This document shows positions 9,795 through 40,024 of a stretch of DNA of 64,000 nt, one piece after another (positions within the stretch are counted from its first letter, which is position 1; each line of letters begins with the position of its first letter). Below the pieces are notes generated by a model, which saw nothing but the letters and a program-made list of their open reading frames with translations, was not told the origin of the DNA and did no database searches. This stretch comes from Bacteroidota bacterium (lineage in GTDB: Bacteria > Bacteroidota > Bacteroidia > CAILMK01 > JACPUW01). Made by a program: the position numbers and the translations under genes. Where the stretch lies: the NCBI GenBank assembly GCA_016192035.1, contig JACPUW010000002.1, positions 1 through 64,000 on the forward strand. Direction: 5' to 3'.

Positions 9795-12700
9795 ATGAGT
9801 GTAAACTGGCCCAGGCCCTGGGTTTCCATATTCGTATATGTGTTTGTGCTACAAGCCATAAACGCACAAGGACAGTGTGGTTCTTTTATCGTTTCAGCCA
9901 CCGACACCCAAATCTGCCTCAACCAGGTAGTCACTTTCAAAGCCACCAATATTCCCGCCCTAAGCCAATACACCTGGTATTTGGGTCTTGATACCATAAA
10001 GGGCACCGATAAGGATACCGTTTCGGTAGCCTATTACAAGCTGGGCACCTTCGGTATCCGCTTGCTAATCAAGCTCAAAAATGGCGATACCTGTTCTGTG
10101 GTAAAACCAGGTTTTATCAAGGTGGGCCAGGCACCGCCAATACCCAAAGTAACCGCCAATTTTACAAGCCTTTGTGATGTTAACCAATCGGTTAAATTAT
10201 CAACCAATGCTGCCGGCATGGCCAAGTATGTGTGGAACGTTGGCCAGATCCTTTACAAGGACAGCACTACTACCATTACCCACAAATTCATAAGAAATGG
10301 ATTCTTTGATGTGGCCCTGAAGGTAGAAAATGCCTATGGTTGCGCCACCACTGTGGTGTATGACTCCCTCATACTGGTAGAACGAAAGCCGGCAATTGAC
10401 CTAGGTATAGGGTCGGCCTCCTTTTGCGACACCCACACACTCTTTCTGTCACCAGGGTACCACATGTTTAACCAGAAGGGTTTCAACTTTTCTTGGACCC
10501 TATCCGGAAGCCATATGGGTAGTTCTTCAAGTAAAGTGCCGGGAAAACTGTTTTATGCCAATAGGGGTGTATATACTTTTGGTTTAGATGTAGTAAGTAC
10601 AGGAAACTGTACCTATTCCTATCTGTTTCCCGACACGCTTTTTATAGGTAAATCTTCCAAACTGGCGCATACCAAATCCACTTCCGCTCCCTGCAATGAA
10701 CAAACATTTAAGATAGACCTAAACCAGCCGGGCGAGTTGATCAACCCACCCACTTGGAAGTTCGTTGGCGACTCCGTGAAAGTGACAAAAGGGGCCAATA
10801 GCGCAAAGGCAACCTATAAGAAGCTGGGAAACTACAAGTACACCATCTCGCATGACGACATGGGTTGCGTTAGTGAAGTGACCGGGACCAACACTGTGAC
10901 ACTGCGAAACCTCAATGCCCAATTTGTGCTCAGTGCCGATTGTTCCTGTAGGCCTCAAGATACATTCTTTGTAACAAATACTACCAAGGGCGCAACGCCA
11001 AGCACTTCCTACCTATGGCGGGTAACAGATGCATCGGACAACCTGATTTTTAGCGACAATAGCCTACAACCCAAGCTTATAATCAACGGTTACGGCACGT
11101 ACAACGTAGAGCTTAGGGCGGTGGACACCAGCGGCTGCCATGACTCCCTGTATGAAGAGGCAGCAATCAAAATAAGCCCGGCTACTCCCGGCATAGCCGC
11201 CGAGCCCAAGGTGGCCTGTGTGGGCCAGGACATAGAGTTTAGGGTTGACTCCATCTGCCAGGATGGGTTTGTTTCTGCCCAGTGGAATTTTTATGCTCCC
11301 GGCAACAAACTCGTGGCCACTTCCTACGACCGATTTCCCATACTTTCATTTGCCGATAAGGGCTTTTACAAGGCCACACTTACCTACACCACAGCAAAAT
11401 GCACCACCACTATCACTAGGCACAAGGTATTTGAGGTAGTGGGGCTTAAGTCTATCAATTTCACTTTGTCAGATACCACGCCTTGTGAGGGTGCAGTCAT
11501 CAATGCCGCCCTTAAGGTAGATCCGCCAACCATTGCCCCCAGGGTAAACTGGACAATTACCCATGTGAGCAAGCCGGGCATCGTTTTCAATGCCACCGCC
11601 GTACAAGCCCAGCCAAACGAATTCCTGCTAAAACCGAATACCACCGGTATATTCAATATGAAGTTGGTTGTCAATGGGGGTAGTGGCTGTAAGGATTCCA
11701 TTGAGCTGCCGTCTTTTGTCAGTGTTTCGGGGGTCAAGTTTGGGTTCAACGCCGATGAGGTAGTAGGCTGCCTTCCCTTTAAGACCACCCTGCGGGCTAC
11801 AATTACTAAAAACGAGCACTATAAAAACCCCAGCAACAATGCGCTGACATATGAATGGCAAGTGCAACCCAATAATACCGCCACAATCAAAGACCCAACT
11901 GGGGCCAAAACCGGTATAGACATTGCCAAAGTGGGCAACTACAATGTGTTTTTGAAAGTAACCAATAGTGATGGGTGCAGTGACGGTGTTTTAAAGGAAG
12001 ACCTGTTTGCCTTTGACTTCAAAGCGGCATTTGGCTTGGATACCAATGTGTGTCAAGGGATTCAAGTGCAACCCACAAACAATACACCGGGAACCAACAT
12101 AGCCTATCGCTGGTACTGTAATGATACCAATGCCTTTTTTCACACCAGACGCATCATTCCTCAGCCCAAGATCAGCTTTCTCAAGCCAGGCGTATATACC
12201 CTTTGGATGGTGGCCACCACCAAGTCGGGATGTAAGGATTCCGCATCTAAAACGATTGTAGTCCATCCCTTTGACTTCGATTTTATGGTGCTGAACAATA
12301 CGCCAAAGTGTACCCCGGCACAATATGAATTCAAAATTGCCCGACAAAACGTGGATACGTTTATCTGGAAGTTTGGCGATGGCAAAAAAGTGGTTACCGA
12401 CCAAAGTGGAATAGCGCATGTGTTTGACCTATCCACCGTAAAACCCTTTCGCAACGAATTTGATGTGGCCTTGATAGGGTTCAACCAACTGGGATGCAGG
12501 GATACCATTAGCTATGCCGATTTAATCAAGGTACTAGGCCCTAATCCCACCTTTGGGTATAAAGTATCCAGGGGATGTGACCCCATGGAGGTAGAGTTTA
12601 TTGACTCTACTGACCAGGTGGTGAAATTCTACTTCAACTATGGCGATGGCAGTTCCGTTGATAGCATCAGTTTTACCCGGCACACCTACTCCAAGCGCGA

Positions 12701-14699
12701 CACCAACCGCACTTTTGAGGTGTTCAAGCCATTTATCATAGCCTCAGACAAGAACAACTGCTTTGTTTACTACCAGCCTACCGATAGCATAGTGGTATAT
12801 GCCAACCCTATAACCCGATTTTGGCTGCCATCCACGCGGGTTTGCGCACCTCATGCCGCTGTTTTTGCCAACCAATCTAAATTCTCCGTGGCCTACCAGT
12901 GGGACTACACCAACAATGGCTCCATAGACCACACCACGGCACAGGGAAAATTTACCTACAAGAATGGCACCTACAGCGTGAGACTGGTTGCCGAGAACAA
13001 GTTGGGCTGTACCGATACCTTGACCAAGGTGCGCTACCTTACCGTATTTGAAAAACCCACAGCGGTGTTTAATGAGAGCGACACCATACTCTGTCCCAAG
13101 AGATTAATCGAGTTTAAAGACCAAACCAATGCCCAGGCGCCCATCGTATCTTGGTTATGGCGTTTTACGGGAAATTCCCTTCATGATTCGGCATTTGGTC
13201 AGCACCAATTAAAGGCGTTTAAGGATACGGGCTATTTCAGTGTGTCACTAGAGGTATTGGATGCCAATGGTTGTGCCGATACCTTGATTAAGGTCAATAA
13301 ATATCATATCGTCAACCGTTTGCCCATCACTTCACCCATTTTGCACTATGCTTCGGTAAGCGAAAACAATGCAGTGGCACTACAGTGGAACAGGCTAGAA
13401 GCCAAAGGATTTGATGAGCTATTGGTCATTTTGAATGACGACGATGACAATCCCGTGCGTAGGATAACCGACTATAGGGCCGTGAATATTGTGTTGCCAA
13501 ACGCCGATGTGGTGAACGCCCCGCAGCGGTACCGCCTACAGCTTATAGACAGGTGTGCCGATCCAAACAGGAATACTGCTACCCACCAGACCATCCACCT
13601 CAGCGTTACCAGAAACCATAAGCCTTTTGCCAGGCTTAAGTGGACCAAGTACCAGGGCTGGGACAACCTGGATGAATACGTGGTGTACCGCGCTGCCATG
13701 GGGGGCGACTATGAAGAATTGATACGGACCAAACCGGGCGACACGGCCTATGTGGACTATACGGTATGCAACCAGAAATACAGCTACTTAGTGGGTAGCG
13801 TGAACCCTGAAACCGGTAAGGTCACCTATTCCAATGTGGTGGTTTTTGATCCGCAATATGGCAGGCCCAATGACACAGTGGAAGTATCTCTGGCCACGGT
13901 GGTGGGCGATAAGATACTGGTAACCTGGAAAGCCAACGATAACCTGAACGTTAAGGATTTTTTTGTGGATAGGTATGACGAGTACAACGGGTGGATTGAG
14001 CGGTACCGCCAGACCAATGATACTTTTATTATAGACCAAGCGGTGGAATCCAATAGGCTCTCATACAAATACCGGGTGTGGTACCGCGACTATTGCAACA
14101 ATCCCAACCCGGCCAGCAATGAAGCATCTACCCTTTTGTTGCTGGGCTGGGCCTCCAATACCGATTTTGTGTACAGCTGGAATCCCTACCAAGAATGGAG
14201 CAATGGGGTAGCTGCCTACATCATAGAAAAAACATTTAACCTGGATATGCCCTTTGAGGAAGTGGCCATTCTGGGCCCAGAAGCCTCTACCATGATTGAC
14301 AACAAAAAGGCCATTCGCAGTGATAGCGCTTTTTATGTGCGTGTCAAGGCCGTGGAAATGGGCCCTGACCCTGACACGAGTATTTCAAACATCATACAGG
14401 TACACCCGGAACCATTGATTTTTTTACCCAATGCGTTTAGCCCAAATGGCGACAATGTGAACGACCTTCTACACTATGATGGCATAGGCATACAGAAACT
14501 GAGCGATGAGGCTTTTCTTTTTGAAGTGTATAACCGTTGGGGCGAGAAAGTATTTGAAAGCAAGTCGTTTAACATAAGATGGGACGGCAGCTATCAAGGC
14601 AAGGATTGTGAAATGGGCAACTACACTTACTACGTACGTTTCAGGGGGGTCAACGGCACAACGTATGTTTATACAGGCGATGTAGTTCTTTTTAGGTAA
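9795..14699 (+). CDS. Giant PKD-repeat surface protein with T9SS type B sorting domain
   Basis: A 1634-residue protein. The signal peptide is in MSVNWPRPWVSIFVYVFVLQ and ends at AQG. The body, to about residue 1130, is a chain of PKD/Ig-like beta sandwiches: repeated units with FxWxFGDG-type turns (IWKFGDGK, FNYGDGSS, WDYTNNGS) and GC-x-D motifs, giving many paired cysteines that suggest disulfides in an extracellular protein. Residues about 1180-1530 resemble fibronectin type III modules (WKANDNLNVKDFFVDRYDE). From about 1540 comes the type B domain: LPNAFSPNGDNVNDLL, VYNRWGEKVFE, IRWDGSYQG and a final GDVVLFR. Such proteins are adhesin-like cargo of the T9SS. It is the upstream member of a tandem pair with the next gene, 47 bases away. 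Confidence 0.88.
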   Translation: MSVNWPRPWVSIFVYVFVLQAINAQGQCGSFIVSATDTQICLNQVVTFKATNIPALSQYTWYLGLDTIKGTDKDTVSVAYYKLGTFGIRLLIKLKNGDTCSVVKPGFIKVGQAPPIPKVTANFTSLCDVNQSVKLSTNAAGMAKYVWNVGQILYKDSTTTITHKFIRNGFFDVALKVENAYGCATTVVYDSLILVERKPAIDLGIGSASFCDTHTLFLSPGYHMFNQKGFNFSWTLSGSHMGSSSSKVPGKLFYANRGVYTFGLDVVSTGNCTYSYLFPDTLFIGKSSKLAHTKSTSAPCNEQTFKIDLNQPGELINPPTWKFVGDSVKVTKGANSAKATYKKLGNYKYTISHDDMGCVSEVTGTNTVTLRNLNAQFVLSADCSCRPQDTFFVTNTTKGATPSTSYLWRVTDASDNLIFSDNSLQPKLIINGYGTYNVELRAVDTSGCHDSLYEEAAIKISPATPGIAAEPKVACVGQDIEFRVDSICQDGFVSAQWNFYAPGNKLVATSYDRFPILSFADKGFYKATLTYTTAKCTTTITRHKVFEVVGLKSINFTLSDTTPCEGAVINAALKVDPPTIAPRVNWTITHVSKPGIVFNATAVQAQPNEFLLKPNTTGIFNMKLVVNGGSGCKDSIELPSFVSVSGVKFGFNADEVVGCLPFKTTLRATITKNEHYKNPSNNALTYEWQVQPNNTATIKDPTGAKTGIDIAKVGNYNVFLKVTNSDGCSDGVLKEDLFAFDFKAAFGLDTNVCQGIQVQPTNNTPGTNIAYRWYCNDTNAFFHTRRIIPQPKISFLKPGVYTLWMVATTKSGCKDSASKTIVVHPFDFDFMVLNNTPKCTPAQYEFKIARQNVDTFIWKFGDGKKVVTDQSGIAHVFDLSTVKPFRNEFDVALIGFNQLGCRDTISYADLIKVLGPNPTFGYKVSRGCDPMEVEFIDSTDQVVKFYFNYGDGSSVDSISFTRHTYSKRDTNRTFEVFKPFIIASDKNNCFVYYQPTDSIVVYANPITRFWLPSTRVCAPHAAVFANQSKFSVAYQWDYTNNGSIDHTTAQGKFTYKNGTYSVRLVAENKLGCTDTLTKVRYLTVFEKPTAVFNESDTILCPKRLIEFKDQTNAQAPIVSWLWRFTGNSLHDSAFGQHQLKAFKDTGYFSVSLEVLDANGCADTLIKVNKYHIVNRLPITSPILHYASVSENNAVALQWNRLEAKGFDELLVILNDDDDNPVRRITDYRAVNIVLPNADVVNAPQRYRLQLIDRCADPNRNTATHQTIHLSVTRNHKPFARLKWTKYQGWDNLDEYVVYRAAMGGDYEELIRTKPGDTAYVDYTVCNQKYSYLVGSVNPETGKVTYSNVVVFDPQYGRPNDTVEVSLATVVGDKILVTWKANDNLNVKDFFVDRYDEYNGWIERYRQTNDTFIIDQAVESNRLSYKYRVWYRDYCNNPNPASNEASTLLLLGWASNTDFVYSWNPYQEWSNGVAAYIIEKTFNLDMPFEEVAILGPEASTMIDNKKAIRSDSAFYVRVKAVEMGPDPDTSISNIIQVHPEPLIFLPNAFSPNGDNVNDLLHYDGIGIQKLSDEAFLFEVYNRWGEKVFESKSFNIRWDGSYQGKDCEMGNYTYYVRFRGVNGTTYVYTGDVVLFR

Positions 14700-14718
14700 T
14701 TCCTATCACCTGCCTTTG

Positions 14719-14726
14719 TACTTTTC
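14719..14726 (+). promoter_or_regulatory. Possible -7 element between the two PKD genes
   Basis: TACTTTTC differs from TAnnTTTG only in the last base. It lies 20 bases before the ATG at 14747, so the second PKD gene may have its own promoter in the short gap. Confidence 0.3.
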
Positions 14727-14746
14727 ACACCGTATTGCGCAACAGT

Positions 14747-17700
14747 ATGAGATGGATGTGTCTGATAATGGCCTTGGTGGCAGGGGTATGCACGCCCTCA
14801 AGTACCTTGGCCCAGTGCCCCGGATATGCTTTTTTCGCTTCAGATTCTATGGGCTGCGAAAACGATATTTTCTCATTCTACACAGTCCCCAAGGCACCTA
14901 AGGCCGCCCTGCTCAACTGGGATTTTGAAACCAAACAGGTAAGCAACAATCCCAATCCATCGGTGGCTTTTACCACCGCCGACACCATCAGCGTAACATT
15001 ATACTTGGCCCTTCCGGGGGGAAATTCTTGTACCCTCAAAAAGGCAGATTACATAACCATAGGACAGAACCCAAAGATCAATTCCCTGACCGTTTCGCAT
15101 AAGGAGCTGTGCGATATAGGAAAAGAGGCGATGTTGACCATTTCATCGCCCGCCGCCAAGAGAATTACCTGGGCCCTCGAGGGCAGCTCTTACGGCGGTT
15201 CGGCCAAGTCTATCAAGCATACGTTTACCAAACCCGGATATGCCACCCTGCAACTTGTGGTAGAAGGTCAATTTGGCTGTAGCACTAAAAAGATCTATGA
15301 TTCCATATTGTTTGTTGACCGCAAGCCCTTGGTAACCTTTCCATTTACCGATACCACCCTTTGTGGGGCTACCCGGTTTCGTTGCAACCCAAAAGTGGTC
15401 TTTTACGGGCATAAACAGTTTGATTTCAACTGGGGTATGCAAGGGGCCACACCCAACTCTAGCACCGTATCCCCGCCATTTAAAGTTGATTATCCCAATA
15501 CCAATAGTGCACATGACATAAGCCTGACACTCTCCAGCAAGGCATCTTCTTGCACCTTTAACTATCTGTATCCTGATGTGATAAAGGTAGTTTCGGCACC
15601 CAGCCTACAGGTGGACGCACAGCCCCTCAATGGGCCTGGATGTAAAAATGCCAAATTCAGCATGGTGCTAAAGAACCCAGGTATTGATGCCGATAAGGTG
15701 GTCTGGAGCCATACGCATGGCGATTCGCTGGAGCTGAGCAAAAAAGGTGGCGACTCCATAATTGCCACCGGCAAATACACTGGCAAGTACACGGTAAAAG
15801 TATCTTATCCCTTTGCCAATTGTACCAAATCGGCCACCGTAAGCATAGCAACAGAGAACAACCCTGTGGCGGCCCGCATGGACCGCAACCTCTCGTGTAT
15901 ATGCAAGGTGCCTTCACAAATTACCGTGCTGAACCGCAGCAGCCATGCCGGCGCCGTGCCCATGACCTACCTATGGACCCTCACCAATGCAAAAGGAAAA
16001 TTCATTGCCAGCAGCACGGACACCCACTTTAGGTGGCGGGCTGATAGGTATGGCAATTTTACCCTAAACATCAAGGCTACCGATACTGACGGTTGCTATG
16101 ACATTGGTAGCTTTGCTTTTAAGGCCAGACCGCTGCTTCCATGGTTTGTGGTATCGCCCAGCGTGGCCTGCCCAGGCACCGAGGTGGCATATGAACTGGA
16201 TGATACCCTTTGCGTGGGCACCATTGACACACTTACATGGACGTTTTTCCAAACCGACAAATCAATAAAAGACACCAAGAAAGGCAAGGAGGTACAGGAA
16301 AAGTACCAAGATACAGGCTGGTATGCCACCAGGGTAACCGTTAAAACACAAGAAGGCTGTCTGGCATCTACCACCATAGATTCTTGCCTCCATATCACGG
16401 AACTCAACCAACTACAAGCCGATATACCTAAGGGCCCATTTTGCGTGGGTGATGAGGTAAAACTTTCGTATCAGGCATTTCCGGCAGAAATGGTGGGCGA
16501 GTGGTACGGTGTTTTTACCCATGATGATACCACGGTGTATTCAAAATTGGGTGATTCCATCAAGTTCAACCCGCCGCTACCAGGATGGTATGATGTGAAG
16601 GTGGTCTTTGTTACCGACGAGTGCTCCGACTCCCTTGTTTTTAACCAAGCGCTTGAAATAGGAGGGGTTACATTTGATTTTACCCCCTTGCAGCTTTCAG
16701 GTTGCATTCCCTTTACCACCACGCTGAAACCTATGGTGGGCCTAAATGTGCTGGTAGGTACCACCGACAAATCCCTGGCGTACACCTGGACAATTGACCC
16801 TCTTTCCCGAGGAAATATAGCGGATGCCAATGCCAGGGATGCCGAAGTGACCGTGAGCAAAGCGGGAAACATTGATATAGGGCTTACCATCTCCAATGCC
16901 CAAGGATGTTCGGCCACGGTAGAAAAGAAGGGCCTGTTCAATATTGGCTTATCGGCGGGCTTCTCCCTGCCAAACGACAGCTTGTGCCGTGGGTTGGAGT
17001 ACCACATAAGCAATACTTCCACGGGTTTTGCTTCGGTAAAATGGGAAAGCAACGATCCGGCTACTGTCTTTTTACCCTCCGACACCTCTTCACAGCCCGT
17101 GGTCATTTTTGGTTCAACAGGCATCAACCATATACAAATCAGGGCAATAGATATGGGTGGTTGTAAGGATTCGCTCTCCTATGCATACCAAATCATGGAC
17201 TTTGACTTGGGGTTTGACGTGGACGATACCAGCGCCCAGTGTTCGCCCGCACAATACCTTTTTACCGCCCGGGCCACCAACGTGGATACTTTTATATGGA
17301 ATTTTGACGACGACCGGGGCCCTGTTTCTACTACCCTTCTTGATTATCTCAAAATCTTTGATTTAACGCGGATATACCCCTACAGGAACGCTTTTCATGT
17401 AGCCCTGCTGGGCAAGAACAAGATGGGTTGCCAAGATTCCGTGTTCCTGCCACAACCCCTCAAGGTATTGGGGCCTGTGCCCAAGTTTTTCATCAAGCAA
17501 AACATGGGTTGTGCGCCATTTACAGCACAGTTTATTGATAGCAGTATTAATGCACACAAGGTATATGTTGATTTCGGTGACAATACCAGCATCGATTCAA
17601 TAAACTACCTGTCCCATACCTATGTGCTACCTGATTCACTGGAAGAATATGCAGCCTACCGCCCTTTTATTATAGTAAAGGACAAGAATGACTGCAAATT

Positions 17701-19648
17701 GAGTTACCGCACGCCAGATACCCTATTTGTATATGCGCCACCCAGGGCCAGGTTTAGGGCCCAGCCGCACACCGCTTGTGCCCCGGCCAGGCTGCGGTTC
17801 TCTGATACTTCGCGGTTTGCCTATTCCTGGAAATGGCTCTGGGATGACGGCAAGGAGTTACTGGGCAACTATCCATTGGCAGAGCATACCTATGGCACGG
17901 GTACTTACCAACCTACCTTAGTGGCATTCAATAAGGTAGGCTGTGCCGATTCTTTTTCCCTTTCCAGATCTATTGAATTGCTCCAGCCTCCTGCTGCCCT
18001 GTTTAACCCTTTTGACACCATAGCCTGTGTAGGTCAGGGCATAGATTTTAGGGATTCTACTACTTCTATATACCCCTTGCGCTCCTGGATGTGGGAATTT
18101 GGGCTTGGTGGAAATGCCGATACTTCCTACCGCCAACATCCAACTTTTGTGTATGGGGCACCTGGCACTTACCATGTTACACTGGTGGCCACCGATTCCA
18201 ACGGTTGCAGCGACACCCTAATTCAGTCTGAACTTATGGATGTCTATGATAAACTGCCCATAGCCCCCCCTTTGATACACCAAGTGGGCGTGGTGGACGA
18301 TAGGGCAGTAGAGGTAAGCTTCTTGGCCACGGAGCGATTTGCCTTTTCGTCTTATGCGCTTTTTGAGCTGGGCACCAATACCAAGGTGTATGAAACCACC
18401 CGCCGTACCGATACCACTGTATTGGTACACCAACCCAATTGGTTGTTTCCCGACTCCAATACCTATTGTTTTAGGCTTCAAGTCACTGATAAATGTGAAT
18501 TTACACATGGCAGCGATACCCACTGCACCATATGGCTGGGCATAGATACCAGCGACAAACAGGTGGGCCAGCTGCACTGGACACCCTATAATGGATGGAA
18601 AGATGACCTGCAGCACTACCAGGTACTGCGTACCATCAATGATGGTTCGGCTACCGATCTCATTGCCATTGTACCTCCATCCACCCGGTTTTATTCAGAT
18701 TCTACCGTGTGCAACAAGGATTATCGCTATGAAGTGCGGGCGGCTCACACCAACAATCGCTGGGTTTCGCTGAGCAACGACCGGATATATACGCCAGAAT
18801 ATGTTTTTCAGAGCAAGCCCCTAGGCATGCACCTGGCTACGGTAGAAGGGGAGGGCGTGAGGGTAATATGGCAGCGGGGCATACAGCGAAACGTGTTATA
18901 CTATACCCTGGATAGGCGGCAACCCGGATACGCTTGGGCCAGGGATTGGCGGGTGGTAACCGATACCACCTACCTGGACACGAACGCCCAGGTGCTCCAG
19001 CAATACTACCAGTATAGGGTTAGGGCCGTGGACGAATGCGGGTATGTTAGCAAGCCCAGTAAGTTGGCCAACAGCATATTGCTTCAGGCCCGCCCTACCA
19101 CGCGCGACTTTGGGCTGGCCTGGAATGCCTACCGCGATTGGCCACAAGGGGTTGAAAAATATGCGGTCTTGCGCCGGGGGCCTAACGATAGCCTGTTCTA
19201 TCTTCTGGCCGTTTTGGCTGGCACTGACACTGCCTTCTTGGACACCAGCGCTTTCTTGCTTTTTGACCAACCCTTTGCTTACCAAGTGGTGGCCCATGAA
19301 AAAGGAGGCCAGAGGCAGGCGAGCTACGCCAACCAGGTAATGGTGGCCCCGCTACCCAGTATGTTTGTGCCCACAGCTTTTACCCCAAACGGTGACGGCA
19401 CCAATGACCTATTTGTGATTAAAGGCTTTGGCTTGATTGACCCGGAGGCTAACAATGATGGATTTCAGGTGCTCCTATACAACCGTTGGGGCGAAAGGGT
19501 TTATCAATCAAATGATTGGAATGATGGTTGGGATGGGCTGTTCAAGGGCTCCCCTTGCCCAGCGGGCCATTACCTATGCGTAGTGTCGGCCCAGGGCATC
19601 AACGGCCAACTCTTATTCTCCACATCTACCGTCTTGCTTATCAGGTAG
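14747..19648 (+). CDS. Second giant PKD-repeat surface protein with T9SS type B sorting domain
   Basis: A 1633-residue paralogue of the preceding protein, with the same architecture and almost the same length. ATG 14747 (MRWMCLIMALVAGVCTP) starts a signal peptide ending at TLAQ; a TTG 12 bases upstream is less likely. Collinear blocks shared with the first copy include VDTFIWNFDDDR against VDTFIWKFGDGK, ALLGKNKMGCQD against ALIGFNQLGCRD, and KVLGPVPKF against KVLGPNPTF. The PKD chain carries the same cysteine pattern, then fibronectin-like modules, and a type B domain from about residue 1540 (VPTAFTPNGDGTNDLF, YNRWGERVYQ, GWDGLFKG). The pair looks like an old duplication, well diverged. No enzymatic motif is visible. 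Confidence 0.88.
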   Translation: MRWMCLIMALVAGVCTPSSTLAQCPGYAFFASDSMGCENDIFSFYTVPKAPKAALLNWDFETKQVSNNPNPSVAFTTADTISVTLYLALPGGNSCTLKKADYITIGQNPKINSLTVSHKELCDIGKEAMLTISSPAAKRITWALEGSSYGGSAKSIKHTFTKPGYATLQLVVEGQFGCSTKKIYDSILFVDRKPLVTFPFTDTTLCGATRFRCNPKVVFYGHKQFDFNWGMQGATPNSSTVSPPFKVDYPNTNSAHDISLTLSSKASSCTFNYLYPDVIKVVSAPSLQVDAQPLNGPGCKNAKFSMVLKNPGIDADKVVWSHTHGDSLELSKKGGDSIIATGKYTGKYTVKVSYPFANCTKSATVSIATENNPVAARMDRNLSCICKVPSQITVLNRSSHAGAVPMTYLWTLTNAKGKFIASSTDTHFRWRADRYGNFTLNIKATDTDGCYDIGSFAFKARPLLPWFVVSPSVACPGTEVAYELDDTLCVGTIDTLTWTFFQTDKSIKDTKKGKEVQEKYQDTGWYATRVTVKTQEGCLASTTIDSCLHITELNQLQADIPKGPFCVGDEVKLSYQAFPAEMVGEWYGVFTHDDTTVYSKLGDSIKFNPPLPGWYDVKVVFVTDECSDSLVFNQALEIGGVTFDFTPLQLSGCIPFTTTLKPMVGLNVLVGTTDKSLAYTWTIDPLSRGNIADANARDAEVTVSKAGNIDIGLTISNAQGCSATVEKKGLFNIGLSAGFSLPNDSLCRGLEYHISNTSTGFASVKWESNDPATVFLPSDTSSQPVVIFGSTGINHIQIRAIDMGGCKDSLSYAYQIMDFDLGFDVDDTSAQCSPAQYLFTARATNVDTFIWNFDDDRGPVSTTLLDYLKIFDLTRIYPYRNAFHVALLGKNKMGCQDSVFLPQPLKVLGPVPKFFIKQNMGCAPFTAQFIDSSINAHKVYVDFGDNTSIDSINYLSHTYVLPDSLEEYAAYRPFIIVKDKNDCKLSYRTPDTLFVYAPPRARFRAQPHTACAPARLRFSDTSRFAYSWKWLWDDGKELLGNYPLAEHTYGTGTYQPTLVAFNKVGCADSFSLSRSIELLQPPAALFNPFDTIACVGQGIDFRDSTTSIYPLRSWMWEFGLGGNADTSYRQHPTFVYGAPGTYHVTLVATDSNGCSDTLIQSELMDVYDKLPIAPPLIHQVGVVDDRAVEVSFLATERFAFSSYALFELGTNTKVYETTRRTDTTVLVHQPNWLFPDSNTYCFRLQVTDKCEFTHGSDTHCTIWLGIDTSDKQVGQLHWTPYNGWKDDLQHYQVLRTINDGSATDLIAIVPPSTRFYSDSTVCNKDYRYEVRAAHTNNRWVSLSNDRIYTPEYVFQSKPLGMHLATVEGEGVRVIWQRGIQRNVLYYTLDRRQPGYAWARDWRVVTDTTYLDTNAQVLQQYYQYRVRAVDECGYVSKPSKLANSILLQARPTTRDFGLAWNAYRDWPQGVEKYAVLRRGPNDSLFYLLAVLAGTDTAFLDTSAFLLFDQPFAYQVVAHEKGGQRQASYANQVMVAPLPSMFVPTAFTPNGDGTNDLFVIKGFGLIDPEANNDGFQVLLYNRWGERVYQSNDWNDGWDGLFKGSPCPAGHYLCVVSAQGINGQLLFSTSTVLLIR

Positions 19649-19669
19649 TAAGCAGCGATTGCCGGCTAC

Positions 19670-20641
19670 CTAATATCCATCACCGGCAAGCAGATGCTGG
19701 TTGTAGTAATCAAATACCCCTTCTTGTATGTTGAGGAAAGGCTCCGTATAGCCTGCCGCCCTAAGTTTGGCCATATTGGCTTGGGTATAGTACTGGTAAG
19801 TTTCCCTTATGTCCTGTGGGGTATCTATATACGCTATCTGCGCCGGTAGGCCGGCACTGTCAAAGAGGGCGTGCGCCAATTCCTTAAATGTTTGTGCATG
19901 GCCCGTTCCCAGGTTGTATAAACCATTGTGGAGAGGGTTTCTGTCTTCCATAAAGTGGCAAATCACCTTCACCACGTCTTTCACATAGATAAAGTCCCTC
20001 TTCTGCTCGCCATGGCCTACACCGGTGCGGTGTGACCTAAACAGTTTTACCACACCGCTTTCCTTCATCTGCCCATAGGCATGATACACCACACTGGCCA
20101 TGCGCCCTTTGTGGCCCTCATTGGGGCCATATACGTTAAAGAACTTAAATCCCGCCCAGAAATATGGTTTATCTGCTTGAGATAAAGCCCATTGGTCAAA
20201 ATCATTTTTACTTACGCCATAAGGATTGAGCGGGCGCAAGTGGGGCACCAGTTCATGTCGGTCGTCATACCCCAGTTCTCCCAGGCCATAGGTAGCCGCC
20301 GATGAGGCATACAGCAGGGGCAGTCCATATTCCGTACACGCCAGCCAAAGCCTTTGGGTATAGCCTAGGTTCAGCCTATTGAATACCTCAGGGTCTTGCT
20401 CGGTGGTATCGGTGCGGGCACCCAGGTGAACAACCATCTGTACCTGAATCCAATTATCGGATAACCAATGGAATAAATGGTCCCGATTCACCTTAGTGAG
20501 ATGTTCCAAGCCCATCAGGTTATGTTGTTTGTCGGCCCGCGAAAAGTCGTCCACCAACACCAAATCGCGGTAGCCCTGGCGGTAGAGGTGCTGGGCAGTG
20601 CAACTGCCTATGAAACCCGCTGCCCCGGTAACTACGATCAT
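19670..20641 (-). CDS. hldD: ADP-L-glycero-D-manno-heptose 6-epimerase
   Basis: A 323-residue short-chain dehydrogenase/reductase-type epimerase that makes ADP-L-glycero-D-manno-heptose for lipopolysaccharide core. The NAD(P) motif TGAAGFIG is at residues 5-12, SSAATYG at 113-119, and the catalytic Y141-x3-K145 lies in NPYGVSK. FKFFNVYGPNE and a KRDFIYVKDV block match the HldD family. The open frame reaches five codons further, but that part is the -7 promoter element itself (20646-20653), so ATG 20641 is the start and the messenger may be leaderless. It converges with the second PKD gene and is the only sugar-nucleotide gene here. Confidence 0.9.
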   Translation of the reverse strand: MIVVTGAAGFIGSCTAQHLYRQGYRDLVLVDDFSRADKQHNLMGLEHLTKVNRDHLFHWLSDNWIQVQMVVHLGARTDTTEQDPEVFNRLNLGYTQRLWLACTEYGLPLLYASSAATYGLGELGYDDRHELVPHLRPLNPYGVSKNDFDQWALSQADKPYFWAGFKFFNVYGPNEGHKGRMASVVYHAYGQMKESGVVKLFRSHRTGVGHGEQKRDFIYVKDVVKVICHFMEDRNPLHNGLYNLGTGHAQTFKELAHALFDSAGLPAQIAYIDTPQDIRETYQYYTQANMAKLRAAGYTEPFLNIQEGVFDYYNQHLLAGDGY

Positions 20642-20645
20642 GCCA

Positions 20646-20653
20646 CAAAAGTA
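20646..20653 (-). promoter_or_regulatory. -7 element of hldD, four bases before the start codon
   Basis: The minus strand reads TACTTTTG (exact TAnnTTTG), then TGGC, then ATG. With the usual 5-7 bases from this element to the transcript start, the RNA would begin at or next to the start codon. That rules out the longer frame. Confidence 0.55.
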
Positions 20654-20656
20654 CAA

Positions 20657-20964
20657 GCACCGGGGAAGGGGCTAAACCCGGACAACACAGCTATCGTATG
20701 GCGCGCAACCGTAATTGGGCCTACTCTGGTAAAGAAGAAAACAGATGTTAACCGCCTTTTTTTGAATGAAACGCTATAGCAGGAATAGTTATGGGCCACT
20801 AAACCGTTACCGCGCACCAAGTATGGACGTTGCGGCTAGACAACTCGAGATCATGGCAATTTGGCCCTGACCTTAGTATAGGGGATAGTCTTGGCCCGGG
20901 TCTATGTGCCACACCAACCCACCTGCCCATGGTTGCAAATAAAACCAGTCCATCCACGTCCCCT
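20657..20964. other. Intergenic gap between hldD and the lectin gene
   Basis: About 300 bases between divergent genes. I see no open reading frame with coding character, no tRNA, no strong hairpin and no repeat. Apart from the -7 elements at each end it holds nothing I can name. Confidence 0.5.
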
Positions 20965-20972
20965 TACTTTGC
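20965..20972 (+). promoter_or_regulatory. -7 element of the lectin gene
   Basis: TACTTTGC includes a TACTTTG core, a one-base-shorter relative of TAnnTTTG, 18 bases before the ATG at 20991. The leader would be about 13 bases, typical of the other genes in this window. Confidence 0.4.
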
Positions 20973-20990
20973 ACACCCTTTCACTGCCCC

Positions 20991-23900
20991 ATGCCCTTAT
21001 CCTTCCGCAGCACCACCACCATCATGGCCGCCCTATGCTGGCTATTATCCCCTGTGCATGCGCAGTTTAGCATGAACGGCGCGGCGGTAAAAAAGGGCGA
21101 CTCACTCTACCAGCTTACCCCAGCCGTGGCTTCACGTGCCGGGTCAATTTGGGATTCCACCAAACTCGACATTTCCACCAGTTTCGACATCAGTTTTAAC
21201 CTCAGGTTTGGCTGCAACAACCCCGGTGGAAAAGGGATAGCCTTCGTGCTCCAAAACGACAACGCGGGCCTAAAAGCCTTGTCAACCAATAGTGGCGGCA
21301 TGGGCTACCAACCTTCCATACTCAAGTCTATGGCCATAGAATTTGATACCCAAAATGATGGCACCAATGATGTGGCAAATGACCATATAGCCATACACCA
21401 AAATGGGTCGCAAAACCTATTGCTGGCCGGCCCCACCTCCATATATCTCGACTACAAAAACGTGGAAGACTGCGGATTGCACAGGGTAAGGGTGCAGTAC
21501 ACCGCCGCTACCAATCAACTGGTGGTGTACGTGGACTGCCAGCAACGCCTACTCGCGAAAATCGATTTGGAGAACGACATTTTTGGGGGAAATAAAAAGG
21601 TTTATTTGGGGTTTACGGCCAGCAACGGCAGCAGCGCTACACCCCACCTGGTGCAGTACTTAGGTAGCACACCCGATCTCAATTTTACCCTTGACCTAGC
21701 GCCCATTTGTCCAGACAGCCTGGACCTAAAGGCTGATATAGTGCGCCGAGAATATGCCAACTATCTGTGGACGGCAAACTATGCCGGAAACCAGGTATAT
21801 ACGGGCGTGGGTTTTCGCAAGAAATGGAAGGCCCCGCAGTTGGGCAACTACACCGTAACCCTCGAGTTGCTTAGACTGTGCGATAGCGTGACCATTCGGC
21901 GCACCAGTTTGGTTACCGCCATTGACCAAACCGATATTCAGTTAAACCACACCACCGATACATTCTGCAACAGGTTTGAGCTTACCATAAACACATCCTG
22001 CACCAATTGTAAGGAGCTTAAGTGGAAGTTTGACGACCGGGGGGCTGCCTGGGGCTGGCCGTACCAAAGCCTAAAACTTACCAAAACAACCGATTATACG
22101 GGATACTTTGTGGCTACTACCCGGCTTAACAGTTGCACCGCTTCCGACTCCATCTTCTTTGACCTGAATATCTTGGGGAGTACCGCACCGGCACCCTGGC
22201 TCAGCGCCGATTCCCTTTGTGCAGGCGATAGCCTACAAGTGATTGACCCCAACCGATTGGCCGATTCAGTGGTTTTTTCATTTGGCCCATCTAGCGGTCT
22301 CAGCCCCCTCTCTTTGCGCAATTTTTGGCTCAAGCCCAGTGGGTTTGGCCCTTTTGCCATTTATAGGAACACGTACTATTCCAGGTTTGGATGTGAAGTA
22401 AAAGACACCCATGTGGTACAGGTAGATACCCTGCCCATTGCCGCTTTTTCTGCGCTTGATTCAGCCAAATCATGTGGAAGGGTGGTCTATGATTTCCAGA
22501 ACAATAGCCTGTATGCCAATATGGCTAAGTGGAAAACCGAGAAGGGAAACTATACCACTAAAAATCTGGACTATGGCACCAAAACCAGTGCCCGGCAAAC
22601 CGTGGTCTTGGTAGCCCGCAACGGTGCTTGCACTGACACGGCATCGTCCCGCTTTTTCGCTCAAATCTTTAGAAAACCCACCATAGACCTCAGCACCGAT
22701 ACGGCCCAGGGTTGTGCCCCTTTTAGGGCCAACTTTATTTGGGTGGGCAGCCCGGTTGACACATTTGCCCTGGACCTGGGCAACGGGCAGGTAGAGGGGG
22801 GAGCCGGGAGGACTGGTTTTTTTGCATCTATTTATAAACCAGGAACATATGATGTGTCATATACCACATCAAGCGGCAACGGGGCTTGCCAGGACACGGT
22901 TTTGTTCCCCGGCTATATCATGGTGCTTGATTCGGTCTTTGCACAGATTTCTTTTGCCCAAACCGGTGGATGCGCCCCCCACCTTATGAACATTGAGAAC
23001 CAAAGTGTGATGGGAAATGCCGCAGTGCGGAAATATTTTTTGGGAGTGGGAAGCACCAACACGCCCAAGGCCAAAGAGATATATTTCCTAAATGATGAGG
23101 ACACCCTGCTCACAAAAGAAGGTATATACAAGGTGGTTTTTGTGGCCAGCAATGGGCTATGCGCCGATACCGCCAACTACCAGATAGAGGTAAAGAGCCT
23201 GTCCAAGAATACCCCGGTGGACATGGCGGGGGCCACAGTAGATTCCCTGGGGCAGGTATGGGTGAGCTGGGAGCGTGAACGGGTGGCTACACACTACCAC
23301 CTATACCGCACCGACGATATGGGCTCACAGCGCTCATTCCCCTTGATTAAGGACACGGTGTTTGCCGATAAATGGGCTGAGACCCAGCGTGCACAATATA
23401 CCTATCAGGTAGTGGCGGTGGACGACTGCGGAAACATCTCAGGCCCATCACGCCCTGCTACCAATGTGCTGTTATCCGGGGCCGTGGGCCAAAACCAGAT
23501 AGCCCAACTCAACTGGACCGCGTACCGGGAGTTTGCCGGCGGGGTGATAAACTACACACTTCAACCCATAGGCAATGAGCCAATTACCACCAATGGACTG
23601 CAATACTTGGATGAAGGATTCTTGAACGAAAGCCAGCCAGACTCCGGTAGGTGCTATGTGGTAATGGCGGTAGAGAACGGCGGAAGGGGATTTGTGGGCC
23701 AGAGCAATAGGATTTGCCTTGACCCACTGCCCGTGGTTTACTGGCCTACGGCCTTTACTCCCGGGTCATCATCGGGCAATGATACCTTTAATTGGAATGG
23801 CGTAGGTATCAAAAAAGCTACCCTGTCGGTATATAGCCGCTGGGGGGCCCTTATTTACCAGGGCCAAGAAGGCTGGGACGGAAAATTCCAAGAGTCCGAC

Positions 23901-23993
23901 TCCCCTGCCGATTTATACTATTATACTTGCCATATGTTGGCAACCAACAAACAGGAACTGTTATTTTCTGGTAGGTTTTACCTAATGCGTTGA
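20991..23993 (+). CDS. L-type lectin domain protein with T9SS type B sorting domain
   Basis: A 1000-residue secreted protein. After a signal peptide ending at HAQ, residues about 25-225 form an L-type (legume-like) lectin domain: FDISFNLRFGCNNPGGKGIA, AIEFDTQNDGTNDV (the metal- and sugar-site region with conserved D and N), DHIAIHQNG, and HRVRVQYTAATNQLVVYVDC. PKD/Ig-like and fibronectin-like units follow, with the same GC and CxD cysteine habit as the two giant proteins. The type B domain at the end reads WPTAFTPGSSSGNDTFNW, VYSRWGALIYQ, GWDGKFQ and FYLMR. Likely a carbohydrate-binding surface protein exported by T9SS; the ligand is unknown. It stops one base before pepE. Confidence 0.88.
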   Translation: MPLSFRSTTTIMAALCWLLSPVHAQFSMNGAAVKKGDSLYQLTPAVASRAGSIWDSTKLDISTSFDISFNLRFGCNNPGGKGIAFVLQNDNAGLKALSTNSGGMGYQPSILKSMAIEFDTQNDGTNDVANDHIAIHQNGSQNLLLAGPTSIYLDYKNVEDCGLHRVRVQYTAATNQLVVYVDCQQRLLAKIDLENDIFGGNKKVYLGFTASNGSSATPHLVQYLGSTPDLNFTLDLAPICPDSLDLKADIVRREYANYLWTANYAGNQVYTGVGFRKKWKAPQLGNYTVTLELLRLCDSVTIRRTSLVTAIDQTDIQLNHTTDTFCNRFELTINTSCTNCKELKWKFDDRGAAWGWPYQSLKLTKTTDYTGYFVATTRLNSCTASDSIFFDLNILGSTAPAPWLSADSLCAGDSLQVIDPNRLADSVVFSFGPSSGLSPLSLRNFWLKPSGFGPFAIYRNTYYSRFGCEVKDTHVVQVDTLPIAAFSALDSAKSCGRVVYDFQNNSLYANMAKWKTEKGNYTTKNLDYGTKTSARQTVVLVARNGACTDTASSRFFAQIFRKPTIDLSTDTAQGCAPFRANFIWVGSPVDTFALDLGNGQVEGGAGRTGFFASIYKPGTYDVSYTTSSGNGACQDTVLFPGYIMVLDSVFAQISFAQTGGCAPHLMNIENQSVMGNAAVRKYFLGVGSTNTPKAKEIYFLNDEDTLLTKEGIYKVVFVASNGLCADTANYQIEVKSLSKNTPVDMAGATVDSLGQVWVSWERERVATHYHLYRTDDMGSQRSFPLIKDTVFADKWAETQRAQYTYQVVAVDDCGNISGPSRPATNVLLSGAVGQNQIAQLNWTAYREFAGGVINYTLQPIGNEPITTNGLQYLDEGFLNESQPDSGRCYVVMAVENGGRGFVGQSNRICLDPLPVVYWPTAFTPGSSSGNDTFNWNGVGIKKATLSVYSRWGALIYQGQEGWDGKFQESDSPADLYYYTCHMLATNKQELLFSGRFYLMR

Positions 23994-23994
23994 T

Positions 23995-24699
23995 ATGCGT
24001 AACTTACTTTTAATCAGTAATTCCACCATGCCGGGTGAACCATACTTTGCCTGGCCTAGGCCCTATGTGGAAGCCTTTGCAATCCAATATGGCATACGCA
24101 AACTTGCCTTTGTGCCATTTGCCGCCGTGGACTTTGGGTATGACCAATATGAGGAAAAATTCGCCAATGCCCTGCGCCCCTTGGGTATAGAGGTGATAAG
24201 TGTGCACCGGGACTGCCACGCCATAGAAACCGCCGATGCCATAGCCGTGGGCGGTGGCAACACCTTTGCCCTACTATCGCGCTGCTATGAACAGGGGCTT
24301 TTGCCGCGCATCCGCCTGGCCGTCACAAACGGCAAGCCCTATATGGGATGGAGTGCCGGGGCCAACTTGGCATGTCCTTACATATTCACTACCAATGACA
24401 TGCCCATTGTCCAGCCACCTTCATTTGAGGCCCTGGGGCTGGTTTCTTTTCAAATTAATCCCCACTATACACCGCTCACCGTCCCCGGCCACGGGGGAGA
24501 ATCACGCGATGCCCGCCTACGCGAGTGCCTGGCCATAAATCCCGGCCTTTCCATTGCCGCTTTGCCTGAAGGCACCCTACTCAAGGTAAACGGTACCAGC
24601 GTGGAGCTGTTTGGATCGGGTTACCTTACGGTTTTTCAGCACGGCCAATTGCCCCAGCGCAAACACCCCGGAGATAACCTTTCAAAACTATGCTCATGA
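23995..24699 (+). CDS. pepE: Dipeptidase E (alpha-aspartyl dipeptidase)
   Basis: A 234-residue peptidase of family S51, which removes N-terminal aspartate from dipeptides. The nucleophile serine is in GWSAGANLACPYI; ALPEGTLLKVNG and INPHYTPL (probable catalytic histidine) match PepE. The start MRNLLLISNSTMPGEPYF is the usual PepE N-terminus. No signal peptide, so it is cytoplasmic. It starts one base after the lectin gene's stop and overlaps pssA, so it is probably translated from the same messenger as a secreted lectin, a curious pairing. Confidence 0.9.
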   Translation: MRNLLLISNSTMPGEPYFAWPRPYVEAFAIQYGIRKLAFVPFAAVDFGYDQYEEKFANALRPLGIEVISVHRDCHAIETADAIAVGGGNTFALLSRCYEQGLLPRIRLAVTNGKPYMGWSAGANLACPYIFTTNDMPIVQPPSFEALGLVSFQINPHYTPLTVPGHGGESRDARLRECLAINPGLSIAALPEGTLLKVNGTSVELFGSGYLTVFQHGQLPQRKHPGDNLSKLCS

Positions 24700-25439
24700 T
24701 AAAATTTATTCCCAATGCACTCACCCTGGCCAACCTAGCAGCGGGCAGCATGGGTATGGCCTTTGCCCATGTGGGCAGCTACCGCTTGGCAGTTTTCATG
24801 CTGCTTGCCGCCCTGGTCTTCGATTTTCTCGATGGATTTTTGGCGCGCTTGCTACATGCCAAGAGTCCTTTGGGGGCTCAACTCGATTCCCTTGCCGACA
24901 TGGTGAGCTTTGGTCTTTTTCCCGCCTTCCTCCTTCACGATTTTTTTGCCCTGGCAGCCCATGACCATGAATATGCAGGTTTATTTACCATAGGCGGCGT
25001 AAATGCTTGGTCTATACCCATTTTTGTCTATGTGTTGGCTGTTGCCCTGCGCCTGGCCAATTTTAATGTTTCCCATGATCAGGGCCATTCATTTAAGGGC
25101 CTCCCTTCACCGGCTGCTGCCATGTTTTTGGTAGGCTTCCCGGCCCTGTACTCCCTTGGCATTCATTTCAACCCTTTTGAACACCCTTGGGTGGACTCCT
25201 ATGCCACCAGCGTGGAAGCCATGTTGGCTGCCGTGGTCTTGGTTTCGGCCCTTATGTTGGTCCCCATACCCTTACTCTCCCTAAAGTTTCAGGGCATGTC
25301 ATTTTCTGTCAATCGGTTTCGGTACTTTTTGATCATACTCTCACTGCCCGTGATTTTCTTCCTGGGCTTTTTGGCCTTGCAGGCGCTCGTAGTTTTGTAC
25401 CTTCTGTTGTCCATCATTCACTTAAGCATAAAATCATGA
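24690..25439 (+). CDS. pssA: CDP-diacylglycerol-serine O-phosphatidyltransferase
   Basis: A 249-residue membrane enzyme that makes phosphatidylserine, the precursor of phosphatidylethanolamine. The CDP-alcohol phosphotransferase motif DG-x2-AR-x8-G-x3-D-x3-D is complete: FLDGFLARLLHAKSPLGAQL followed by DSLAD. Several hydrophobic helices follow (for example VLVSALMLVPIPLLSL and FLGFLALQALVVLYLLL). Start either at 24690 or at the ATG 24696, which overlaps the pepE stop as ATGA. It overlaps purS by four bases in the same way. The order pepE-pssA-purS-M28 is a tight run. Confidence 0.93.
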   Translation: MLMIKFIPNALTLANLAAGSMGMAFAHVGSYRLAVFMLLAALVFDFLDGFLARLLHAKSPLGAQLDSLADMVSFGLFPAFLLHDFFALAAHDHEYAGLFTIGGVNAWSIPIFVYVLAVALRLANFNVSHDQGHSFKGLPSPAAAMFLVGFPALYSLGIHFNPFEHPWVDSYATSVEAMLAAVVLVSALMLVPIPLLSLKFQGMSFSVNRFRYFLIILSLPVIFFLGFLALQALVVLYLLLSIIHLSIKS

Positions 25440-25699
25440 AGTTCTTGGCAAAAGTTTCCATTATGCCACTTGAAGAGTTGTTAGACCCTCAAGGAAAGGT
25501 TGTAAACCGCAGCTTGACCAATTTGGGATTGGCAGAAATGGAAAACGTACGGATAGGTAAACATATCCGGTTTACCTTATCGGCAAATGATGAAGCCATC
25601 GCGAGGTCCATGGTGGAACTGGCCTGCACGAAACTGCTGGCCAATCTAATTATGGAGTCGTATGAATTTGAAATTGAACCTATTGCCGATGAAGTGTAG
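25436..25699 (+). CDS. purS: Phosphoribosylformylglycinamidine synthase, PurS subunit
   Basis: An 87-residue protein, the normal size for PurS, the small subunit that bridges PurL and PurQ in purine synthesis. The signs are KVSIMPLEELLDPQGKVVNR (the family's P-x-x-x-L-DPQG-x-V block), then LGLAEMENVRIGKHI, and a C-terminal ESYEFEIEPI. The ATG overlaps the pssA stop as ATGA. No purL or purQ is near, so the partners must be elsewhere. It overlaps the peptidase downstream by 11 bases. Confidence 0.88.
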   Translation: MKFLAKVSIMPLEELLDPQGKVVNRSLTNLGLAEMENVRIGKHIRFTLSANDEAIARSMVELACTKLLANLIMESYEFEIEPIADEV

Positions 25700-26960
25700 C
25701 TGGTTCTTTGCACTGGCCGCATGGCTTCCTATTGCCGTACAGTCACAAGACCTAGCCTACGCCAAACAATTGGTAGATACCCTGGCCGGCGATGCCTATC
25801 ACGGCAGGGGGTATGTGGACCGGGGCGGAGAAAAAGCGGCGGCTTTCATCTTTGGTGAATTTGAACGGGTGGGCCTCAAACAGGTGCAGTACCAAGAGTT
25901 TACCCACCCAGTAAACACATTTCCGGGCAGCATGGAAGTGGAGGTGGATGGCGCTCACCTGCAGCCGGGACTTGACTATATCGTGGCGCCCAATTCTGCG
26001 GGCAGTCCAGGGTGCAAACTCGTGCTCGTGCGGCTGCAAGCCAAGGATGTGGAAAGTGAAAGATTGTTTAAGAGATTCATATCCAAACATCAATGGGGTA
26101 AATCTGCCCTGGTTATTGAGAAAGGCTTGTTTGCCTTAATTGGTAGCGATGAAGTGGGCAAAGCCATATCTGGCAACACTTTTGGGGCAGCTGCGCACCT
26201 TATTCTCACCAATGACAAACTCACCTGGTCTGTAAGGGACAACGTGTTGCCCTACATTCAGTTGGAAATGCTTACTACCGCACTGCCCCACTCCGCCACC
26301 AACATTTCCCTGCGCATGGATCAGGTTTTGGTACCTCTTTTCAACAACCAAAATGTGCTGGGCCTACTCCCAGGGCTGCGCACCGATTCTTTTATCGTTT
26401 TTACCGCCCACTATGACCACCTGGGGCAAATGGGCATCGATGCCTGCTTCAACGGAACCAATGACAATGCCGGTGGGGTGGCCATGCTCTGCGACCTGGC
26501 AAGGCACTATGCAGCCAAGGATTCACCTCCGCCTTACTCCGTGCTCTTTATAGCCTTTGGCGCTGAAGAAGCCGGATTGATAGGTTCTAAATACTATGTG
26601 GAACATCCTGTGTTTCCATTAGGGCAAATAAGCCTTCTTATAAACCTTGACCTGGTAACCAATGGACAGGACGGCGCCACAGTGGTGAATGGCAGTGTTT
26701 TTAAGCAGCTGTTCAAGTTGTTGAAACGCTTAAACGAAGAGCAGGGATACCTAAGCGCCATAAAGGTGAGGGGCAAGGCGGCCAATAGTGACCACTACCA
26801 CTTTAGCGAACGCGGCATTAGGGCCATTTTTATTTACCTGCTGGGTGAATACCCGTATTATCATGATGTGATGGATACACCTGATAAACCCAGTTGGGCG
26901 GGCTACGAAGGGTTTTTTAGGTTGATAAACGAGCTTGTGGGGCATACCGCCATTTACTAG
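25689..26960 (+). CDS. Exported M28 family zinc peptidase
   Basis: A 423-residue aminopeptidase-like protein. Start at ATG 25689 gives a clean signal peptide (MKCSWFFALAAWLPIAVQSQ); an ATG 27 bases earlier would put charged residues in front of it. The zinc ligand set of family M28 is present: TAHYDHLGQ, TNDNAGGVAM, FGAEEAGLIGS (catalytic and ligand glutamates), INLDLV and SDHYHF. A PA-like insert precedes the catalytic domain. It probably acts in the periplasm or at the surface on peptides. It is the last gene of the overlapping run and is followed by a new promoter at 27004. Confidence 0.88.
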   Translation: MKCSWFFALAAWLPIAVQSQDLAYAKQLVDTLAGDAYHGRGYVDRGGEKAAAFIFGEFERVGLKQVQYQEFTHPVNTFPGSMEVEVDGAHLQPGLDYIVAPNSAGSPGCKLVLVRLQAKDVESERLFKRFISKHQWGKSALVIEKGLFALIGSDEVGKAISGNTFGAAAHLILTNDKLTWSVRDNVLPYIQLEMLTTALPHSATNISLRMDQVLVPLFNNQNVLGLLPGLRTDSFIVFTAHYDHLGQMGIDACFNGTNDNAGGVAMLCDLARHYAAKDSPPPYSVLFIAFGAEEAGLIGSKYYVEHPVFPLGQISLLINLDLVTNGQDGATVVNGSVFKQLFKLLKRLNEEQGYLSAIKVRGKAANSDHYHFSERGIRAIFIYLLGEYPYYHDVMDTPDKPSWAGYEGFFRLINELVGHTAIY

Positions 26961-27003
26961 GCGCCGATAACCCTTTAGTAAATAGTGCCTATGGGCTTTA
27001 GCC

Positions 27004-27011
27004 TACCTTTG
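27004..27011 (+). promoter_or_regulatory. -7 element of maeB
   Basis: TACCTTTG is an exact TAnnTTTG match, 24 bases before the maeB ATG at 27035. It separates maeB from the peptidase transcript upstream. Confidence 0.55.
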
Positions 27012-27034
27012 AGGCCTTATTTCTAACCACGCAT

Positions 27035-29317: not shown

Positions 29318-29320
29318 CTT

Positions 29321-29911
29321 ATGTATGCGTTCCTAAAAGGTGAAATAACCGAATGCAGCCCCACCCATGTGGTGCTACAGGTGCACGGTGTGGGCTATTT
29401 CCTCTCCATTTCGCTACATACCTATGAAAAGGTATCGTCACTACGCGAAACCTTGTTATACACCTATTTATGGGTCAAAGAAGACGCGCTTTCCCTCTTT
29501 GGCTTTGCCGACAAGGAGGAGAAGGCCATTTTTGAAATGCTGATAACGGTATCTGGCGTGGGCCCCAATACCGCCCGCACCGTGCTATCCACCCTATCAC
29601 CTGCCGAGGTGGCCGGTGCAATAAGCAAGGCCAACGTGCCGTTACTCCAATCCGTTAAAGGAATCGGTGCAAAAACCGCTCAAAGAATGGTTTTGGAGTT
29701 GCAAGACAAAGTAATGAAAACTGCCTCTGGCCCCGTGCATGGCATAGTGGGGCAAGACCACCAACAGCGAGAGGAGGCCCTGGCAGCCCTGGTGATGCTG
29801 GGTTTTAACCGCACCGCTGCCGAGAAGGCACTGGCCCAGGTGCTCAAAACCAACCCATCTACAGACCTTACTGTAGAACAACTCATTAAACTTACCTTAA
29901 AGGCCATATAG
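29321..29911 (+). CDS. ruvA: Holliday junction branch migration protein RuvA
   Basis: A 196-residue protein that binds four-way DNA junctions and loads RuvB. The OB-fold N-terminus YAFLKGEITECSPTHVVLQ, the helix-hairpin-helix motifs ITVSGVGPNTARTVL and VKGIGAKTAQRMVLEL, and the C-terminal RuvB-binding helix bundle (EEALAALVMLGFNRTAAEKA) are all present. It lies between maeB and sprA; ruvA directly before sprA is a conserved arrangement in flavobacteria. Confidence 0.96.
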   Translation: MYAFLKGEITECSPTHVVLQVHGVGYFLSISLHTYEKVSSLRETLLYTYLWVKEDALSLFGFADKEEKAIFEMLITVSGVGPNTARTVLSTLSPAEVAGAISKANVPLLQSVKGIGAKTAQRMVLELQDKVMKTASGPVHGIVGQDHQQREEALAALVMLGFNRTAAEKALAQVLKTNPSTDLTVEQLIKLTLKAI

Positions 29912-29923
29912 GGACTCATTGCT

Positions 29924-37996: not shown

Positions 37997-38015
37997 CGAC
38001 CTTTCTAAAAAGCAT

Positions 38016-39991: not shown

Positions 39992-40024
39992 ATAACCAAG
40001 TTATCAAACCTTACACAATGGTTA

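Follow-up and report, generated by a model that had tools for sequence, protein, structure and literature searches.

Proteins with a type B sorting domain are exported by the type IX secretion system (T9SS) and taken out of the SprA translocon by PorP/SprF-like shuttles (PMC12618676). In Flavobacterium johnsoniae, one common shuttle serves three orphan type B proteins, and type B domains target their cargo for static anchoring or for the gliding track (PMC12618676). SprB has a cognate carrier, SprF (PMC12635249), and RemA has a lectin domain (PMC11205867). The latter source, a review, describes GhpA as a T9SS-exported heptamer. Giant PKD surface proteins are usually taken as free-form repeat stalks.

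We analysed a window of 64,000 nucleotides, positions 1-64000 of contig C39 of a draft genome of 2.98 Mb in 44 contigs (labelled G000). A preliminary description of this window had singled out two adjacent genes, A and B, encoding cysteine-rich PKD proteins of almost equal length, and had joined them with a nearby lectin gene, C, and perhaps with a fragment at the left edge, into one surface-adhesion set. We find that A and B are an ordinary type of protein, but that they belong to a family whose architecture is unusually fixed: rather than a free-form stalk, it holds 18 distinct positions.

Two collinear genes of the same build

Gene A (9795-14699, plus strand) starts at the ATG at 9795 and encodes 1634 residues, arranged as 13 PKD-like units, four fibronectin-III-like units, and a type B sorting domain. 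Gene B (14747-19648, plus strand), its collinear paralogue, lies on the same strand after a spacing of 47 bases and encodes 1633 residues from the ATG at 14747, or 1637 from an alternative TTG upstream at 14735. The open reading frames, strands, and lengths are those initially reported. The PKD-like units of A span residues 27-1175 (9873-13319, plus strand) and were delimited by the conserved cysteine pair present in each. AlphaFold predicts residues 25-845 as a succession of units made entirely of beta structure (pLDDT 80); its model of residues 822-1634, which covers units 10-11, is poor (pLDDT 59). The four fibronectin-III-like units occupy residues 1178-1541 (13326-14417, plus strand); their boundaries come from the alignment, and their likeness to fibronectin III was judged by eye and from generic fold matches. 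The sorting domain closes the protein at residues 1542-1634 in A (14418-14696, plus strand) and at about residues 1539-1633 in B (19361-19645, plus strand). The type B assignment of all three proteins is confirmed by scores above the cut-offs of both TIGR04131 (39.4 bits for A, 46.6 for B, and 38.6 for C; cut-off 35) and CHU_C (PF13585; 58.5, 57.4, and 30.3 bits; cut-off 27). At the other end, A and B have a signal-peptide-like N-terminus, read by eye as a hydrophobic stretch followed by a conserved AQC/GQC start. The label 'cysteine-rich' is accurate in absolute terms (34 and 40 cysteines, i.e. 2.1-2.5%), but this content is unremarkable for CHU_C proteins of this genome, which span 0.7-3.2%.

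The alignment of A and B by BLASTP runs end to end, with 767 bits, 480 identities in 1632 positions (29%), and 43 gaps (3%). As a control, we compared all 29 CHU_C proteins of the genome with each other. Nine of the resulting 406 pairs cover more than 90% of both partners, and A-B is third by score. Five of the other eight involve A or B with two dispersed paralogues, or those two together; the remaining three represent other equal-length families (L046/L047, L033/L035, and L049/L051). Two of these are likewise made of dispersed, collinear CHU_C paralogues: proteins of 1444 and 1452 residues with 36% identity (L046:1501-5835 and L047:1107-5465), and proteins of 1515 and 1478 residues with 35% identity (L033:1559-6106 and L035:2340-6776). 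When the PKD-like units of A were cut by their cysteine pairs and each was scored against every unit of B, the positional counterpart was the top match in 10 of 13 rows and 11 of 13 columns, against a chance expectation of one, and the mean score was 112 on the diagonal and 15 off it. The common unit order and collinear motifs noticed at first are thus clearly beyond what random PKD proteins share. That units at equal positions in A and B mostly match each other best indicates that the array is old and that its units have retained their identities.

TAnnTTTG-like boxes with one mismatch are found at 14711-14718 and 20964-20971, 36 and 27 bases 5' of the starts of B and C, and B may have its own promoter. 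A scan for sigma-70-type promoters gave sites no more frequent than in shuffled sequence.

A family with fixed positions

We found no description of the A/B family, and neither the Pfam nor the NCBIfam scan produced a model spanning its full length. A 15-member profile retrieved 17 proteins, mostly its own seeds, at 1830-2046 bits and as one unbroken domain of ~1630 positions; a non-seed protein from another family of the class (in G108) scores 1181 bits over its full length. A and B are among the seeds, and the BLASTP and unit-scoring tests above are independent of the profile. All 18 positions (13 cysteine-paired PKD-like units, four fibronectin-like units, and the sorting domain) recur across the family, whose length is steady at ~1630-1680 residues although identity drops to 24-30%. 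The near-equal length of A and B, true as it is, is therefore a family-wide trait and not special to the pair. Each of the 13 PKD units retains its cysteine pair in 12-15 of at most 15 members, and for most units the length differs by only a few residues among members. A longer class (1681-1757 and 2066 residues) aligns in collinear blocks, with additional PKD units.

The best-conserved stretch of the family comprises units 10-11 (residues 825-1002 of A; 12267-12800, plus strand), with a mean identity of 37-39%, compared with 38% in the sorting domain and 20-32% in the rest. The IWKFGDGK/IWNFDDDR and KVLGP blocks that had first drawn attention to the pair fall within these two units. That conservation is highest mid-rod, and not at the N-terminal tip, suggests a structural or assembly contact there. 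Together with distinct positions of near-constant length at ~25% identity, it points to a defined assembly over a simple spacer, and it makes units 10-11 a concrete place to seek a contact.

The window genome encodes two further full-length members, both dispersed (C23:85362-90260 and C35:60955-65883). The family is present in nine of the 12 genomes examined in the order and, with a strict threshold, in eight of the 119 genomes of a class sample. A search for related loci with a three-member profile matched only the genomes RI_201 and HKST-UBA117, and a search of plasmids with the family returned C-terminal matches only. The neighbours of the other members are housekeeping genes only: feoB and genes for aconitase, chorismate-binding and TPP enzymes, BrkB, and a symporter.

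An old pair, and recurrent pairing

Two genomes retain the arrangement of the window. The metagenome-assembled genome RI_201 (G001), of the same genus, has adjacent orthologues in the same order, with 61% identity to A and 48% to B. HKST-UBA117 (G002), another such genome, from a different genus of the same family, has an orthologue of A (40%) followed by the start of one of B (31%), cut by the contig end. In the tree, the three A sequences group with a support of 100, as do B and its orthologue in RI_201, and the B sequence of HKST-UBA117 branches next (87). Gene order and tree grouping together indicate that the pair arose before these genera diverged. A and B are not exclusive sisters, since the copies on C23 and on contig C112 of G001 branch with B, and exclusive sisterhood is rejected (p 0.0017).

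Head-to-tail pairs of family members are found in eight of the nine family-carrying genomes of the order, i.e. in the three above and in G004, G005, G007, G009, and G011. The AU test rejects descent of them all from one ancestral pair (p 2e-52), so pairing is recurrent and arose more than once. In G005 and G009, the partners are mutual nearest relatives (79% and 50% identity), which reflects recent duplication or gene conversion. Recurrent pairing may reflect a joint function or just the ease of tandem duplication. The long-class pairs of G004, G005, G009, and G011 (L093, L094, L096, and L097) are flanked by feoB, and in G005 a stretch of about 2.5 kb that includes gcvH separates the pair from the end of sprA.

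The lectin gene and the surroundings of the pair

Gene C (20991-23993, plus strand) encodes a T9SS protein of 1000 residues and is separated from B by hldD (19670-20656, minus strand), which encodes an ADP-glyceromanno-heptose 6-epimerase (TIGR02197, 340 bits). Its N-terminal L-type lectin domain, at residues 23-216 (21057-21638, plus strand), is above the cut-off of PF18483 (105 bits) and matches PDB 7elv (E 1.8e-16), as expected from the preliminary description; within it, EFDTQNDGTNDVANDH is similar to the metal site of legume lectins. The C-terminal stalk and sorting domain (23097-23990, plus strand) have homologous counterparts at the ends of A and B, with 30% identity to B over 322 residues. 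C nevertheless falls outside the A/B family: its best match to A and B is limited to the C-terminal ~300 residues, and its orthologue in RI_201 scores 253 bits with the family profile, versus 1830-2046 for members.

The genes to the left of A have the layout rimP-nusA-infB, in which rimP and nusA are named by layout alone; a reading of these genes as an efflux operon is ruled out by Pfam, which shows infB. To the right, sprA/sov, encoding the outer-membrane translocon of the T9SS, lies at 29924-37243 (plus strand; 2474 bits). In RI_201, contig C50 carries the A-B pair at a distance of about 2.6 kb from infB, in the orientation opposite to that of the window, whereas the lectin orthologue (45% identity) is on contig C60, in the block order that it has in the window: hldD, lectin, S51 peptidase, CDP-alcohol transferase, M28 peptidase, maeB, ruvA, and sprA. 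The 14.8 kb upstream of hldD on C60 lack A and B. A PKD protein of at least 3466 residues (L110:1-10401 of this genome) lies upstream of hldD, where the window has A and B. HKST-UBA117 has the pair but lacks a comparable lectin homologue, its best match being limited to the common C-terminal stalk. C was found in the genus of the window only. The pair is thus near infB, and the lectin gene near hldD and sprA, in both the window and RI_201, which makes them two adjoining units and not one set; draft contig ends leave some room for doubt on this linkage. C is a separate, younger, genus-level neighbour that has the same export route as A and B.

The lectin gene heads a same-strand run (20991-37243) that ends in sprA and is kept in RI_201, and it stops one base before the next gene. 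It is possible that this cargo is co-expressed with its translocon, SprA. Immediately after sprA, G+C content is 37-38% (38001-40000), against 45-54% in the preceding 38 kb.

The fragment at the left edge represents the 3' part of a further CHU_C gene interrupted by a break in the assembly, and we saw no link between it and the A-B pair. The first 141 bases of the contig (in the region 1-201 of the window) coincide exactly with those at the beginning of contig C44 and fall within the 3'-terminal part of a CHU_C gene. These identical starts resemble an assembly-graph overlap, so this gene is probably repeated or branched. Pieces of CHU_C genes are also found at the start of C23 and at the end of C11.

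Predicted export and possible roles

The genome encodes a T9SS with SprA and GldL (217 bits), and a GldJ-like protein below the cut-off. It has four PorP/SprF genes for 32 CHU_C matches above the cut-off; none of the four is near A, B, or C, contig C39 has no match, and no dedicated SprF partner was found. With so few PorP/SprF genes and none beside the three, A and B would depend, as orphan cargo, on a common shuttle. The sequences support the placement of A and B as tandem paralogues in the type IX export class, and that of the locus as having an adhesin-like PKD, fibronectin, and lectin architecture. We consider it fairly probable that A and B are disulfide-stapled surface stalks, likely adhesive, exported by SprA and anchored through a shared PorP/SprF-like shuttle. 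They would derive from an old duplication in a family that keeps the identity of each unit. Each would cross the inner membrane by Sec, form its disulfides in the periplasm, be threaded through SprA, and be passed to one of the few shuttles. A shuttle serving many orphan type B proteins would leave them attached through the C-terminus, with the N-terminus facing outward. Immunoglobulin-like and fibronectin III units measure about 4 nm each, and the 17 units might thus form a rod of roughly 65-70 nm. Its job would most likely be adhesion or spacing at the cell surface; adhesion is proposed by analogy, since we recognised no ligand-binding domain in A or B.

The two genes could instead encode the two chains of a hetero-oligomeric appendage of GhpA-like build, joined at units 10-11. 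The conservation of these units fits this idea, as do the adjacency of the old pair in three genera, the several origins of head-to-tail pairs in the order, and the closest solved structure, GhpA, a T9SS-exported heptamer (PMC11205867). Yet single dispersed members share the identical architecture, tandem duplication is common, and some partners are 79% alike, and we regard this reading as unlikely. Its fuller form makes A and B the paired components of a T9SS appendage not described before, with its joint at units 10-11, and takes pairing to have recurred because the chains cooperate; it appears quite doubtful.

A different account sees no distinct joint function in the two genes: as redundant paralogues, A and B would be maintained through dosage or through antigenic or phage-driven diversification of the surface. 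The genome does encode four members of full length, along with further CHU_C families of equal-length proteins, and identities between G000 and G001 are lower for B (48%), the C23 copy (38%), and C (45%) than for A (61%). However, divergence extends along the whole rod instead of focusing at the tip, and unit order and cysteines are strictly retained; we think this account improbable too. The co-inherited adhesion set of A, B, and C, with or without the left-edge fragment, is highly improbable. All are type B within about 14 kb, and the stalk of C is akin to B, but the separate neighbourhoods in RI_201, the pair without a lectin in HKST-UBA117, and the origin of the fragment in another, broken gene all speak against the set. 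The stalk reading, with A and B as shared-shuttle cargo, is the one we retain.

Comparison with known systems

The locus resembles several described systems in part. The CHU_C proteins of TIGR04131 and PF13585 have in common with A, B, and C the C-terminal sorting domain, but these models cover no more than the final ~85 residues; in A and B, the 17 units before them make up the fixed-architecture family. SprB (type B) and RemA of F. johnsoniae are T9SS surface proteins, as is predicted for A, B, and C, and C has a lectin domain as RemA does. Unlike SprB, none of the three has an adjacent PorP/SprF gene; this comparison with SprB and RemA is by description. The likeness to L-type lectins (PF18483; PDB 7elv) concerns only the N-terminal domain of C, embedded in a T9SS protein of 1000 residues.

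GhpA of Aureispira sp. CCB-QB1 (PDB 9flp, 9fly, and others) is, like A and B, a T9SS-exported extracellular array of PKD/Ig-like units with a CHU_C-like end, but has 5898 residues versus 1634 in A. VipB, the sheath protein of the T6SS, was sought in the window genome as a sign of ixotrophy and was not found, although a divergent T6SS of Bacteroidota could escape this search. Among solved structures, the model of the N-terminal half of A is matched best by the neck and base of GhpA, with low TM-scores, and unrelated animal immunoglobulin chains also match the model. GhpA is also the best match of the family profile (E 2.6e-98). We rejected it as a true relative: the match breaks up into ten stretches, none above 75 bits, which are scattered, overlap in part, and are not collinear, and the single sequence of A matches nothing in the PDB. 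Given such a scattered and generic match, we claim likeness of build and not membership. If the paired A and B chains do cooperate, they would constitute, beside GhpA, another defined surface structure exported by the T9SS.
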